Assembly (NCBI RefSeq): GCF_037975245.1
Contig: NC_092566.1
Location: forward strand, 15,166,001 to 15,230,000
DNA length: 64,000 bases
Direction of reading: 5' to 3'
Origin: Apostichopus japonicus
Taxonomy: Eukaryota > Echinodermata > Holothuroidea > Aspidochirotida > Stichopodidae
Part shown: positions 42,766 through 62,844 of the stretch, one piece after another
How the letters are laid out: each line of letters begins with the position of its first letter
Position numbering within the stretch: position 1 is the stretch's first letter
The notes under the pieces: model-generated
Told to the model about the DNA's origin: nothing
The model's input: only the letters and a program-made list of their open reading frames with translations
Database searches by the model: none
Position numbers and translations under genes: made by a program

Positions 42766-45700
42766 TCATTTACCAAAGAGACTCATTGCACCTAAAGCAG
42801 CTTTCCCCAGGGAGCCATACCAGCTTCTCTCTTCAGGTGTTAGCTCGTCGTATCCCTCGGGCAGTCGCTCCCCTTCTTCGGCCAACACTCTCGCTTTTAA
42901 CTTCTCTGCAACGTGTGTAGCAACATGTTTACCGACACTGTGTAAGAGAGCATGCCAGTCAAAACGCTCCGCTGGAGATAACTCAGCCATTTTCTTCTCG
43001 AAGTCATCTAGCATGGCATTCTCTCTGTTATCATGTATGAGTTGTCTTTCCTCTCTCTGTTTTGGCTGATTCTTGTTGTCGGCTAGAGCACCACGGTGAT
43101 GATGATGGAGCAGTTTATGAAACAATCTGTGGCCGCGGCGACTAAGGGCATCCGCGTCAAGAATTTCGTCCTCGATGGAAGCGGCTTTAATAAGTAAATA
43201 AATAAGAATGGTGGTGTATAATGTGGATTGCTTATGATTTGGTGGACATTTTTGCTTTTTTTTCAGGATGATCTAGTCAGAATAGTCTTGATATCTTATA
43301 GTACGAGAAAGTAAACACAATTTTGTATTTTCCCTTTTTTTTTAATTCTTTGGACATAATTCAGTCATACAGTTTGTTAACGTCTGAAACAAGACTTTAA
43401 CAATCCAGTTAGGATGATTTCAGCGCCACAGATCAGACCAATTTGTCAAAGATTGCTTTCGGCAGAATTAAGTCTTGACATTTTATAGTCCATGAATAGA
43501 TATAATATGTTGGTGCAGATGTTTATGCAGCGCGTCTGGTTTGCAAGATAATAATAATAATAATAATAATAATAATAATAATAATAATAATAATAATAAT
43601 AATAATAAAAATCATAATAATAATAACAATAATAATAATAATCATAATGATAATAATAATAATAATAATCATAATGATGATGATAATAATAATAATAATA
43701 ATAATAATAATAATAATAAAAGGTTATTTATTTCTATATTTCGCATTATACCGACGGTCTCGCTGCGCTTTATAAGAAACAAAATGAGTACAAAAATACA
43801 GCATGGTAGAACCAAAACTTAAACATTTACCAAATGGATCGAAAAATTACAAGGTTCAATGAGGGTAGCACGTGAATAAGTGAGTTTTTCATACACTTTA
43901 TAAATTGTCTATGGTAGGGGCATTCCTAATGTGGGTGGGGAGAGTGTTCCAGAGTTTTGGGGTCCGAAAATTGAAAAGAACGCTCACCGTAGGTCTTAGT
44001 TTTCACTTTAGGTGGCTTTAGGAGAATAGTACTGTTAAATCTGAGTGTGCTAGTTGGGATTTGTAAGGTGAGTAAGTTGGAAATATAGTTTGGAGCAAAC
44101 CAAGGATGGCTTTGTAAATGAGGGAGAGAAGTTTGTACTTTATTCGTTAAGAAACCGGAAGCCAGTGAAGTTGGTGGAGAATAGGTTTACTGTGGGATCT
44201 GTTATCTGTGAGGGTAACTAATATAAGGGCGGTGTTTTGAATGCTCTGAAACTTAGAAATTTAGTTTAAGCAGGAAGACTATATAAAAGTCTGCCACAAC
44301 AGTCAAGTATGGATGGTACAGAGGCATGGATAAGTGTCTCAGTCGACTTGTGATCCGGATATTTGCGAATTTGTCTAATTTGTCTGATAGGATGTGAGGA
44401 AGAGAAGCAGATTATATTTACATGAGGAACCAAATGGGCCACCAATGTGAGTGTAAAATAACACCCATATCTTTAACAGCGGGAACGGGAGATATACAAG
44501 AACCGCTAATCTTAACGGAAGTTACAGGGGTGGCATAGTCACCTTTAACTGTGTTAACTTCTCTGGACTGCTCCTTTAATGTCTAAATTGAAAAGTTGGC
44601 CCCTCAATGCATGCTCTAATGTTATCATTCAGTCATTGTTAATACATTGTTTTATAAATTCTAGTAACTGCTCCAAAGAAAAATATATCATTTTACCTTT
44701 ATGTAAACAACCAAGCACTTTTGGATGATATTCAATAGCATTTGTCACTGAAAAATTGGCAAAATTGAAAAACAAATCTGACATAATTATGTAACCATGT
44801 AAGGATAAACCTCAGCCCGTTGAGTTTTTTTGTTGCATCTAAGGACACAATGGTCTGAGTATTACTAACTATAGTCAGTCAAAAAGATCATTTTACAAGT
44901 ATTATTGAAATACAAACTGGACGTATCGCAGTGTAAGACAAAATCATTGAAGCAACAGGTCCCATCTAAGGGTAAAACTTGCCAAGGTTGTAAACGGCAT
45001 CTGATTTGGAGATCACAAATGATTGTTCATCCAAAAGTGAACTTGAAGCAACCAGGCTGACAAGTCTGGTATCGAAGGAGCACATTGACTAATTTTGTTC
45101 TTTATTTTTCTTCTCCAAAATTTCAATCCAACATTTTACTTCAACGTTGGATGGATGGATCTAAATATGAACACATAAAATAGGGATTCCAAATAAAAAA
45201 GGCGATTACTAAAGTTTTGTATAACTTCACATCTCCTTTTATAGGCCCTATAGGTTAAAATGAGAATATCCAATCCAATCCAAGGTCATAACAATAAAGC
45301 GAGAACTTGAATACCGCGAAAAATATACAGTACTTTGCGGGCGGAGTGCAACTATGGCATGGCAGCTGTTTGCTTCAAGTTTACTGCTGTTAACATCACA
45401 TCATCTGTGACAATCTCTACGATCAATATGTCGAATAAGCTACGCTATATACAAATTGTATACCACAGATTTGACCAGGATGCTTAGAATTTTGTTTCTC
45501 TTTCGTCTGTCAATAATGAATTTTTCCCTATAGCTATATATCCTTTTAAAGCAAAATGTATCAACGTGATTTGATACGCTGGTTTATCACAAGTTAAACA
45601 CCTCATAAAAAGCACAAAATCTTCCAAGTTCACTTTTTTTTTATTCCCCACATCTTACCCCGTACCCCCCGAATCCCATATAACTGTTATAACCCCCTTA

Positions 45701-47104
45701 TTTCTCCACACCTTTCTGTCTTTGTCCTTTTCTAATTTATTCTCTACCCTCTTCCCTTAATCCTCTCTTTGTCCCTCGGCAGTTTATCTCCTACCTCTCC
45801 TCTTCCCCTGTTGGTCTCTTTCTCTTCTCCATCCCTTGTCTACTAATCCTCTTACATCTATCTCTTTGTGTTCACCTTGCTCATTCGTGAATTTGTCCCT
45901 TCTGTTACTGTGACTTGTCATTTAGCCTCTGAAGAAGATCCTGCTAGGACCGAAATATCAGGCCAACTTACTTTTACACACTCTCTTCCACAGGCTCTTT
46001 TGTGGATAAGCAGTTTGCTAAAAGTTTTATTTTATTTTTGGTACAAAACATGTCAACTTCAAATGTTGTTATTTCGAAAATGATATGTTGAAAATGAATT
46101 CAACACTGTGGATGCTTAGAAAATATGTTCCTCGCTCACCGGTCAATTTGTTTGTAACAAGGATCATTCTTTTCAAATTTCTGCCTAAAATTAAGTTGTT
46201 CTTGACAACGTGTTCTGAACTGACAACACTGGTCTATGGCATATGATTTTATCTTTGAGCTATCTATAAAGTTAAGCCGAGATTTCTGACACTTTGTTCA
46301 GCTTGCAAACATTTACGAACCACTCCTTCCTCCACCACCCCAGAGGAAAATTAAGGTATAAAGAAATTTCAGTTAAGTACAAAGAAAAAGATTATTAAAA
46401 AAAAAAAATTGAAATCGGCATATTTGAAGTATCGGTAAAGTAAAAAGAAAAATGAAAAAAAAAGACACGAACAAGTGATCTCAGCATAACAAATCATGTC
46501 CACCACCAACTGAGCTCTGAAGCTCTTGGTTGGTGGTGATCCCTAATTTTTCATTTGCTGACGGTATATCGGTGAGACGCCACATCACTTTTGTATTTGT
46601 GTATGTTAGATCCTCCTGCAAGCAGGAACTCGCGAAGAAGCCTCATTGGCTTATCAAAGCCGCAAGCTGACCGAAGTCAGTCTCTTTGCACTTCGGTGCA
46701 TTCGGTGCACCTTGCACTTCGGTGAAACCATGAAGGGATCAGAACCCTCCTCGCATTGGATGCAAGTAAGACATTGTCAGAAAGGGCGTTCAATTAAAAT
46801 GATTCGATTAATTTCGGTTATAATACCAGTACACTATATAATCGCCTTAAAACATGTACGTAAACAGGCCTTCTAAAAAAAAAAAAAACATGTATACAAC
46901 TGACCTCTAACAAACATCAACAAGCACTTGCAAATAAATGATGGTCTTATACTCTAAATGCAGAAATATGGAAGATACAATATTCAAAATGGACAACTTT
47001 CGACGGAAGAAAAATAAATAAAATAAAAAAATAAGCATCTTACCGAAAGTTTTGACCGAGCAAACGATGAAGGCAAAGGCCAACAAACATCGAAGAAGCG
47101 CCAT
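42766..47104 (-). CDS. Histidine-rich amphipathic peptide precursor, copy 1 (complete, two exons; putative antimicrobial peptide)
   Basis: Exon 1 47104-47044 encodes a 20-residue signal peptide (MALLRCLLAFAFIVCSVKTF) and ends in phase 1 at G|GTAAG. Exon 2 43184-42766 starts after TTAAAG and ends in TGA. Predicted 159 residues, no cysteine after the signal. Order: short acidic pro-segment, Arg-Arg, a His-rich basic stretch (GHRLFHKLLHHHHRG), acidic linker, a second helix (FDWHALLHSVGKHVATHV), a YDELTPEER linker, and a C-terminal helix SWYGSLGKAALGAMSLFGK. The final Gly-Lys fits C-terminal amidation after carboxypeptidase trimming. Basic amphipathic helices separated by acidic spacers are typical of antimicrobial-peptide precursors; function is inferred. 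A TATA box lies ~100 bases upstream. Homologous to the three tandem copies to the right. Confidence 0.75.
43548..43720. repeat. (AAT)n microsatellite
   Basis: Trinucleotide tract with CAT and GAT interruptions, in the single intron of peptide copy 1. Reads as poly-Asn, not coding. Confidence 0.95.
43860..44620. repeat. Probable old transposon remnant
   Basis: Purine-rich, non-coding stretch (for example gtgttccagagttttggggt, gaaaccggaagccagtgaag) of a style common in degraded interspersed repeats, although no second copy lies in this window. Class unknown. Intronic in peptide copy 1. Confidence 0.3.
45640..46080 (+). mobile_element. Possible retroelement 3' region with hammerhead-like fold
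   Basis: A pyrimidine-rich run (45650-45890) is followed at 45924-45964 by a compact stem structure: outer GCCT/AGGC, CTGAAGA, inner stem ATCCT-gct-AGGA and CGAAA. This resembles the hammerhead motif order CUGANGA-stem-GAAA found in some Penelope-like retroelements, but the usual U in CUGAUGA is A here. No reverse transcriptase frame is seen. Confidence 0.35.
46605..46690 (-). mobile_element. SINE family 1, 3' fragment
   Basis: agatcctcctgcaagcagga through accgaagtcagtctctt matches the 3' body of the SINEs at 1521, 10490 and 35952. The tRNA head is missing. Intronic in peptide copy 1. Confidence 0.75.
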
Positions 47105-47200
47105 GTTTCGTTTTCGACTAATTTAACTTCTAGACTTTCTGGAATGTTGAAAAGCGTCGGCAAAAAGAAGATTGAGGAGGACAGGAAACAAACATTGCTT

Positions 47201-62173: not shown

Positions 62174-62572
62174 CCCTATGAACCCCCCCCCTCGTTGCAC
62201 AAGCCCCTGGGGCGGCGATGCCGTCAAGAACAAAAGAACAGTGAGTAATTCTAAGAATCAGAAAATATGCCTTTAAGACTGCATATTTTATGGAAGCAAA
62301 ACAAAACAATAAGAAACAACAATTCTTTGAAATAGGACACATAAAGTATTTCATGTTGAATTTGATATATTCATTGGACAAAAACAAGAGATTGTATCTC
62401 TATTTTATAATGTATCATATCAAATCAATCCAGCACTATACTAACTATTAAGACACAAGGAAAAAATAAACTAACTACAGTGAGTACAGCGCACGTTTTG
62501 TATTGTCTGTAGCTCAGTGGTACGACCCGCAGTCTCGAAATCAATTACATTTCTCCTTTTCCTTGTGATGAT

Positions 62573-62844
62573 TTATTTACCAAGGTAACTTAAGGCAGCG
62601 TTGGCTGCATGGTGCGCCAGTGAGTGCCACCAGCTTTTCTCTTCTGGGGTTAGTTCGTCAAATCCCTCTGGATTCAACGCAGCCATTTTCTCCTCTAAGT
62701 CATCAAGCAAAGCATCTTTGTCCTCCCCATCGTCTCCAGCGAAGTCCCTCTTTCCTGGTTTATGATGGAACCGATGAAACAGATTCTTCAAAAATCCTCG
62801 GCGAACGAGGGCATCGTCGAAAGTTTCGTCCTCCATCGGGGCAG
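62573..62844 (-). CDS. Histidine-rich peptide precursor, copy 4, exon 2 (short form; exon 1 would lie beyond the window)
   Basis: Same acceptor and phase as copies 2 and 3; ends GK-TAA with AATAAA overlapping the stop. About 89 residues. Begins APMEDETFDDALVRR, then GFLKNLFHRFHHKPGK, where the internal Gly-Lys site of copies 2 and 3 is gone through a small in-frame deletion and His replaces Gly. It shares with copy 2 the loss of the whole middle helix. C-terminal helix SWWHSLAHHAANAALSYLGK. An exon 1, if any, would be to the right of 62.9 kb and is not seen before 64 kb. Confidence 0.65.

Follow-up and report, generated by a model that had tools for sequence, protein, structure and literature searches.

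A 64,000-nucleotide stretch of the genome of the sea cucumber Apostichopus japonicus (contig NC_092566.1, positions 15,166,001 to 15,230,000; here called the window) carries four clustered peptide-precursor copies on its minus strand, and we are confident that they constitute a cluster of SWYG-type precursors in which copy 1 most likely encodes the precursor of the peptide SWYG-1, copies 2–4 form a tandemly arrayed sister group, and the products most likely have a regulatory action on muscle. SWYG-1 (SWYGSLG) is a myoactive peptide isolated from the body wall of this animal (PMC3432112), which is farmed at a very large economic scale (PMC6586643). Copy 1 supplies a candidate gene for this bioactive peptide, which was left without a precursor in the surveys of PMC3432112 and PMC6586643. 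The sister group, named SWWH here after its variant of the SWYG motif, has a fast-changing terminal peptide and makes it a testable question whether these 'neuropeptides' are signals, antibiotics or both.

Copy 1 comprises a leader exon and a second exon separated by a long intron (Table 1); the signal peptide and the TATA box which an earlier note on this DNA had reported for it are both in place. Its splice acceptor reads AAAG, the junction is in phase 1, and AATAAA signals are located 3' of the gene at 42624 and 42609. Once spliced, copy 1 has a frame of 480 bases (159 codons and a stop), whose product is identical to the protein P0001 over 159/159 residues, far beyond chance. The signal peptide was assigned by this identity and by near-identity to the SWYG-3 precursor, for which a signal peptide has been published. 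The first seven residues of the C-terminal peptide (42805-42825), embedded in the context R-SWYGSLG-K, are exactly the sequence of the isolated SWYG-1 (PMC3432112, Table 1). Because it contains R-SWYGSLG-K, copy 1 is, as far as its sequence allows, most likely the SWYG-1 precursor gene and the best candidate for it.

The published record provides two close parallels. Precursors of SWYG-2 and SWYG-3 (AjSWYGP-2 and AjSWYGP-3) have been reported, with both genes on linkage group LG12, and amidated SWYGSLASALL has been detected by mass spectrometry in the circumoral nerve ring (PMC6586643); SWYGP2 is described as absent from embryos and larvae (PMC9598280). Full-text searches returned no paper on SWYG-1 or on sea cucumber SWYG peptides beyond PMC3432112, PMC6586643 and PMC9598280. 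Copy 1 shares with AjSWYGP-2 and AjSWYGP-3 the attributes of the type, namely a leader with a signal peptide, a propeptide, a SWYG peptide preceded by a single basic residue and a C-terminal Gly followed by a basic residue. It differs from them in the peptide itself, which is SWYGSLG-K-AALGAMSLF-GK in copy 1 and SWYGTLG... or SWYGSLASALL-GR in the known SWYG-2 and SWYG-3 precursors.

Table 1. Features of the precursor cluster, in positions of the window
Feature	Positions	Strand	Basis
Copy 1, TATAAAA box, 102 bases 5' of the ATG	47200..47206	-	sequence
Copy 1, exon 1: start codon, signal-peptide-like MALLRCLLAFAFIVCSVKTF, first base of split codon	47044..47104	-	ATG at 47104, GTAAG donor after 47044
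Copy 1, intron of about 3.86 kb in phase 1	43185..47043	-	GT...AG ends; identity to P0001 spans the junction
Copy 1, exon 2: codes for propeptide and peptides, stop included	42766..43184	-	100% to P0001
Copy 1, predicted middle helical peptide FDWHALLHSVGKHVATHVAEKLKA	42892..42963	-	internal repeat and translation; release inferred
Copy 1, C-terminal peptide SWYGSLGKAALGAMSLF, then Gly-Lys-stop	42775..42825	-	translation
Tandem array of copies 2–4; each unit (exon 2 with part of the intron and the 3' flank) about 5.5-5.6 kb	48321..64000		blastn 89-94% between units (main pieces); repeat spacing about 5.3-5.7 kb
Copy 2, exon 2, SWWH type, without middle helix; C-terminal peptide SWWHSLAHHAAKAALGYAL-GK	51466..51755	-	sequence
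Copy 2, exon-1 remnant: promoter/5' untranslated region and ATG GCA GTT CTT (53020-53009), then broken	53009..53131	-	similarity to copy 1
Copy 3, exon 2 of the SWWH group, middle helix present; GWWHSVAHHAAHAAIDHYI-GK as C-terminal peptide	57062..57465	-	97% to P0005
Copy 3, exon-1 remnant: 3' half, 13 codons AILVLVFCTVAIV, GTAAGT donor	59195..59234	-	12/13 as in P0007
Copy 4, exon 2, SWWH type, middle helix absent; SWWHSLAHHAANAALSYL-GK as C-terminal peptide; exon 1 outside the window	62573..62844	-	sequence

The earlier note had not recognised these genes as a described family; that they are undescribed is ruled out by the protein searches. Spliced copy 1 was searched against about 5.8 billion proteins, and the four matches with an E-value of at most 1 are all from A. 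japonicus: P0001 (an NCBI entry, 100% identity), P0002, which is the SWYG-3 precursor and the nearest named relative (90% identity, E 2.6e-83), P0003 of the SWYG-2 type, which contains SWYGTLG (74%), and P0004 (BSL78_04020, 80%). Copy 1 belongs to the published SWYG-type precursors, which have been described as myoactive or neuropeptide precursors; as far as published annotation goes, this places the family in a known non-immune group, the very outcome that the earlier note had said would refute it. A search with copy 3 returned three further A. japonicus proteins (P0005-P0007), and a ten-sequence profile, with which the 7995 candidates sharing the most words were scored, added P0008 (BSL78_15252) as its sole newcomer, so that 8/8 matches at E<=10 are from this species. 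The protein search relies on shared five-residue words, and the absence of matches beyond A. japonicus is weak evidence.

Copies 2–4 are 51-52% identical to P0001, with the RR and PEGxDELTPEE columns conserved. In a midpoint-rooted tree a single 100/100 split separates P0001-P0004 from copies 2–4 and P0005-P0008, the last of these on a long branch. Judged by this tree, copies 2–4 group with the four uncharacterised A. japonicus proteins as a SWWH type apart from the SWYG proteins, although none of the four is exactly equal to any of the three copies. The SWYG motif is replaced by SWWH, GWWH and SWWH in copies 2, 3 and 4, respectively, and in this, as in the lack of a middle helix in two copies, they differ from AjSWYGP-2 and AjSWYGP-3. 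P0006 and P0007 have an intact leader, MAVLRC...FCTVAIVA, and display the form that an intact SWWH leader takes. All entries of this branch in the protein database are labelled uncharacterised or hypothetical, and a full-text literature search for SWWH together with Apostichopus found no paper on them. A tblastn comparison of eight family proteins with the window gave no match below E 0.15 beyond the four exon-2 frames and the exon-1 places; neither a further family copy nor an intact SWWH exon 1 was found within the window.

The four exon-2 frames (Table 1) are built alike. RR-G is present in 4/4, Gly-Lys-stop terminates 4/4, and the encoded proteins contain no cysteine in any of the four, all as the earlier note had described its clustered, cysteine-free minus-strand precursors. 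The shared phase-1 intron that it had also claimed holds for the splice acceptor and the phase, which are kept in all four copies, but an intact exon 1 was found for copy 1 only. In an alignment of 11 members the DELTPEE stretch before the C-terminal peptide is invariant and every member (11/11) ends in Gly-Lys or Gly-Arg. The middle helix follows a comparable motif, (E)LxPxE(R/K), as exemplified by copy 1 with ELSPAER before the middle peptide and ELTPEER before the SWYG peptide. When the middle and C-terminal modules were aligned with each other, with modules of our own choosing and P0004 and P0005 left out, the score was reached by 5, 7, 5, 12 and 1 of 2000 shuffles for P0001, P0002, P0003, copy 3 and P0008, respectively. 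The two peptides may be the product of an ancient internal duplication and be cut by the same enzyme. In copies 2–4 and P0005-P0007 the N-terminal basic peptide spans from RR to a Gly-Lys-Arg, and this closing motif reads as a canonical dibasic amidation site. Relative to copy 3, an in-frame 114-nt difference deprives copies 2 and 4 of the middle helix; of the two or three peptides per precursor proposed earlier, these two copies would release two rather than three.

These features suggest how the precursors may be processed. By analogy to the paralogue SWYG-3, the SWYG precursor would be secreted, and cleavage behind ...TPEE(R/K) followed by trimming and amidation would yield SWYGSLGKAALGAMSLF-NH2; C-terminal amidation had been anticipated by the earlier note, and the amide has been demonstrated by mass spectrometry for SWYG-3 (PMC6586643). 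The isolated SWYGSLG would arise by further cleavage of SWYGSLGKAALGAMSLF at Lys, or be a fragment. The same would apply to the release of the N-terminal His-rich peptide, which follows RR, and of the middle peptide, which follows ...SPAER; in copies 2–4 the N-terminal peptide is bounded by RR and Gly-Lys-Arg. The products would most likely be secreted regulators of body-wall muscle, which is the one activity that we found in the literature, and the muscle effect, the detection in the nerve ring and the amidation favour such a role. A membrane-active part in defence, most of all for the SWWH group, deserves to be taken seriously as the second possibility. The computed net charge rises by 2.6 to 5.0 between pH 7.4 and pH 5.5 for the His-bearing peptides tested, with the exception of the P0008 C-terminal peptide (+1.0), and the activity of the His-rich peptides might conceivably depend on pH or metal.

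For copies 2–4, about 2.8 kb per unit (part of the intron, exon 2 and 1.1 kb of 3' flank) was aligned. Their introns differ by 4.3-4.5%, and the first 300 bases of the 3' flank by 1.0-1.7%, which is below the intron in 3/3 pairs (p 0.040, 0.014 and 0.003). Gaps in exon 2 are confined to 15, 114 and 3 nt, all multiples of three, whereas 4/40 intron gaps are divisible by three (pairs counted apart). In a neutral simulation with the indel rates of the intron all three frames stayed open in 30/5000 runs. This pattern indicates that the frames of copies 2–4 were probably under selection until recently.

The promoter-like region and 5' untranslated region of copy 2 align to those of copy 1 with 66.7% identity over 126 bases (E 0.016), a local score that is reached by 0/2000 base shuffles and by 0/1262 real 150-mers of the window, and the MAVL codons of this remnant are those of P0006 and P0007. 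The copy 3 remnant has no in-frame Met upstream. The order of the exon-1 halves of copies 2 and 3 does not allow splicing to join them, and upstream of copy 4 an ATT repeat reaches the window end. Each unit also harbours, in its 3' flank, an ATG/GATGATGAC microsatellite of varied length of up to 322 bases (48484-48609, 54060-54228 and 59441-59762), and a pair of inverted-repeat arms about 1 kb apart (49792-49909/50903-51020 and similar pairs), reminiscent of a fold-back mobile element. The arms are possibly a driver of the duplications.

A number of observations weigh against the account given so far, and they give room to two rival explanations. As regards copy 1, the matching P0001 is itself a gene model. 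A SWYG-1 precursor is reported neither in PMC3432112, where transcripts for SWYG-1 or -2 are stated to be absent among 29,666 isotigs, nor in the nerve-ring study PMC6586643, whose SWYG section does not present one. The peptides are also not uniformly amphipathic: a hydrophobic moment above 95% of shuffles was computed for 5/10 C-terminal peptides (in the window for those of copies 1 and 4 only), for 1/5 N-terminal and for 1/4 middle peptides tested, so that the amphipathic helices of the earlier note stand for half of the C-terminal peptides but not for most of the other two. Moreover, Elphick (2012) pointed out that myoactive fragments from tissue extracts may be artefacts of proteolysis. 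One rival explanation is that the SWYG peptides are neither signals nor defence peptides but result from the breakdown of a secreted protein with a different function, such as a mucus or matrix protein; they were isolated from body-wall extract, and the short SWYGSLA forms part of a longer processed product. Against this stand the amidated form of SWYG-3, which ends exactly at the Gly of Gly-Arg, the similar ELxPxE(R/K) cleavage context before both helices and the Gly-basic end common to all aligned members, and we regard the explanation as improbable.

As regards copies 2–4, an intact start exon is missing in copies 2 and 3 within the window, and in none of the three does AATAAA or ATTAAA follow the stop within about 300 bases. 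The propeptide part of exon 2 differs by 1.8-3.8%, which is not significantly different from the intron (p 0.089, 0.44 and 0.85), and a neutral simulation of substitutions alone leaves all frames open in 2024/5000 runs. The propeptide divergence and the substitution-only simulation give no support to selection, so that the argument for it depends on the indels and the 3' flank. The broken start exons, the missing AATAAA or ATTAAA and the substitution-only simulation would fit recently 5'-truncated, non-expressed relics, with copy 1 as the sole working gene in the window. P0005 likewise starts inside exon 2 and has no signal peptide, and because it, too, is without a leader the loss of exon 1 may be real and not a fault of the assembly. 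Against the relic explanation stand the rarity of neutral runs that keep all frames at the intron indel rate, the conservation of the proximal 3' flank and the complete leaders of the close relatives P0006 and P0007, and an assembly error or an alternative first exon is possible. We consider it a serious contender that falls somewhat short of being probable; the preferred reading remains that of a sister group with frames maintained by selection.

Under that preferred reading the array would have arisen by tandem amplification, with frames preserved by selection and a C-terminal peptide that changed, most of all on the branch of copy 3. Between copies 2 and 3 this peptide differs at 12/66 positions, compared with 51/1184 in the intron (p 5.5e-5), and none of the 259 windows of 60 bases in the aligned stretch is more diverged; between copies 3 and 4 it differs at 9/63 (p 0.003) and is again the most diverged, of 245. 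The pair of copies 2 and 4 is unremarkable (2/63, a value reached by 148/245 windows). Both high-divergence pairs involve copy 3, and the nucleotide result therefore rests on the branch of copy 3. Non-synonymous and synonymous differences (pN/pS) in the C-terminal part amount to 0.203/0.146 for copies 2 and 3 and 0.169/0.158 for copies 3 and 4; positive selection is unproven because synonymous change in this part is also high. At the protein level, C-terminal change exceeds that of the pro region (p<0.05) in 13/15 pairs among copies 2–4 and P0005-P0007, pairs that are not independent and were compared with the middle segment left out and P0008 excluded. Copy 4 and P0007, for example, differ at 0/69 residues of the pro region and 6/20 of the C-terminal peptide. 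The pairs without such an excess are copy 2 with copy 4 and copy 3 with P0005.

Focal change of this kind would be expected if the genes encoded host-defence precursors that release two or three cationic or His-rich helical peptides, silenced by acidic spacers and diversified in an arms race, with the muscle effects being incidental. The most diverged windows, the excess in the protein pairs and the tandem array fit this explanation as well as or better than a regulatory one, as does the C-terminal peptide of P0008, which has a computed net charge of +4.9 at pH 7.4 and a high hydrophobic moment. It is weakened by the lack of an excess between copies 2 and 4, by the dependence of both nucleotide results on copy 3's branch and of the protein pairs on one another, and by a pN only slightly above pS; exchange with a distant paralogue could give the same divergence of copy 3. 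Moreover, the SWYG proteins P0001 and P0003 display the opposite pattern, their C-terminal peptide being less changed than the N-terminal part, and the published amide of SWYG-3 was detected in the nerve ring (PMC6586643). On balance, a defence role strikes us as possible, and less probable than a regulatory one.

Resemblances to known defence peptides bear on the same question. Pleurocidin is an antimicrobial peptide of fish. Two pleurocidin entries (PDB 1z64/2ls9), which resemble a 15-residue stretch with HVGKHV in the middle peptide of copy 3, are the only PDB matches of this peptide at E<=10, with E-values that are not significant (0.58 and 0.64); a reversed control of this peptide had no match at that threshold. 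The middle peptide of copy 1 shows no match to pleurocidin, and no PDB match at E<=10 was obtained for it, for the C-terminal peptides of copy 2 and P0008 or for the N-terminal peptide of copies 2 and 3. If it is anything, the pleurocidin likeness is likely to be convergence. Holothuroidin 2 of Holothuria tubulosa (PMC3702452) aligns its ASHLGHHALDHL with ASHVGKHVAQHL in the same stretch of copy 3 (57247-57212) and agrees in 7/12 residues, a score reached by 8/5000 peptide shuffles in a comparison that was chosen after the fact, whereas copy 1 gives no match (4393/5000 shuffles reach the score). The synthetic holothuroidins are very weak, with minimum inhibitory concentrations of at least 12.5 mg/ml, and the word 'precursor' does not occur in the main text (PMC3702452). 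Two peptides of that paper, joined, found nothing in the PDB. The copy 3 middle peptide (57212-57247) is a possible clue to the holothuroidin 2 precursor; we did not adopt these genes as holothuroidin precursors, as copy 3 matches and copy 1 does not, and keep this as a lead.

Domain searches point to no established family. A Pfam scan of the 11 members gave a best E of 0.046 to an unrelated family, with the frog family Antimicrobial_2 in 2/11 (best E 0.3), and a scan of the four exon-2 frames and two other open reading frames (ORFs) gave a best E of 0.033; among the matches listed, none reached the curated cut-off in either scan. A PDB profile search with the 11 members yielded four matches with unrelated names (best E 0.29). 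In the literature on His-rich or amphipathic antimicrobial precursors of sea cucumbers, no title or abstract opening among the matches listed describes a SWYG/SWWH family. The centrocins and strongylocins of sea urchins are likewise gene-encoded echinoderm peptides, and EeCentrocin light chains carry a terminal Gly-Arg amidation signal, but they are disulphide-linked heterodimers or cysteine-rich (PMC4805251), and the cysteine-free exon-2 proteins of the window are, as noted earlier, distinct from them on this score.

One further proposal combines these strands. SWYG/SWWH might be a holothurian multi-peptide host-defence family that was filed under neuropeptides since its first peptide was isolated by a muscle assay, a notion that we regard as possible but less likely than not. 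Each precursor would then yield an N-terminal peptide rich in His and an amidated one at the C-terminus, and some copies a middle helix resembling pleurocidin as well, details to which the same degree of confidence applies. No more assured is the suggestion that duplication and focal substitution diversify the C-terminal peptide of the SWWH array, with the SWYG branch having been conserved, possibly for a neural role. Baramicin of Drosophila offers a conceivable analogy for a family with both neural and defensive functions: this antimicrobial gene encodes several peptides, and its truncated paralogues serve in nervous tissue (PMC9246212), with no sequence relation claimed.

A bacterial origin of SWYG-containing proteins, speculated for SWYG-3 in PMC3432112 on account of a similarity to bacterial proteins reported there in 2012, can be dismissed for practical purposes. 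The spliced gene matches A. japonicus chromosome models, a pattern search of genome contigs matched 588 stretches of which none was confirmed as a relative, and the SWYG-3 gene has been reported in the A. japonicus genome (PMC6586643), which for this peptide refutes the idea in print.

Apart from the cluster, the window contains a segment at 22800-28550 that is apparently repeated three times with a spacing of about 2.58 kb; near-identical short translated matches lie at 23330, 25914 and 28495, and similar ORFs at 22801-23175 and 28017-28523. The only Rfam tRNA match, a weak one of 31.3 bits on the minus strand at 4345-4417, is perhaps a tRNA-derived short interspersed nuclear element; ARAGORN called no tRNA in the window, this place included. 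Minisatellites are located at 31722-32261 (188 bp x 3.0) and 20983-21291 (92 bp x 3.4).

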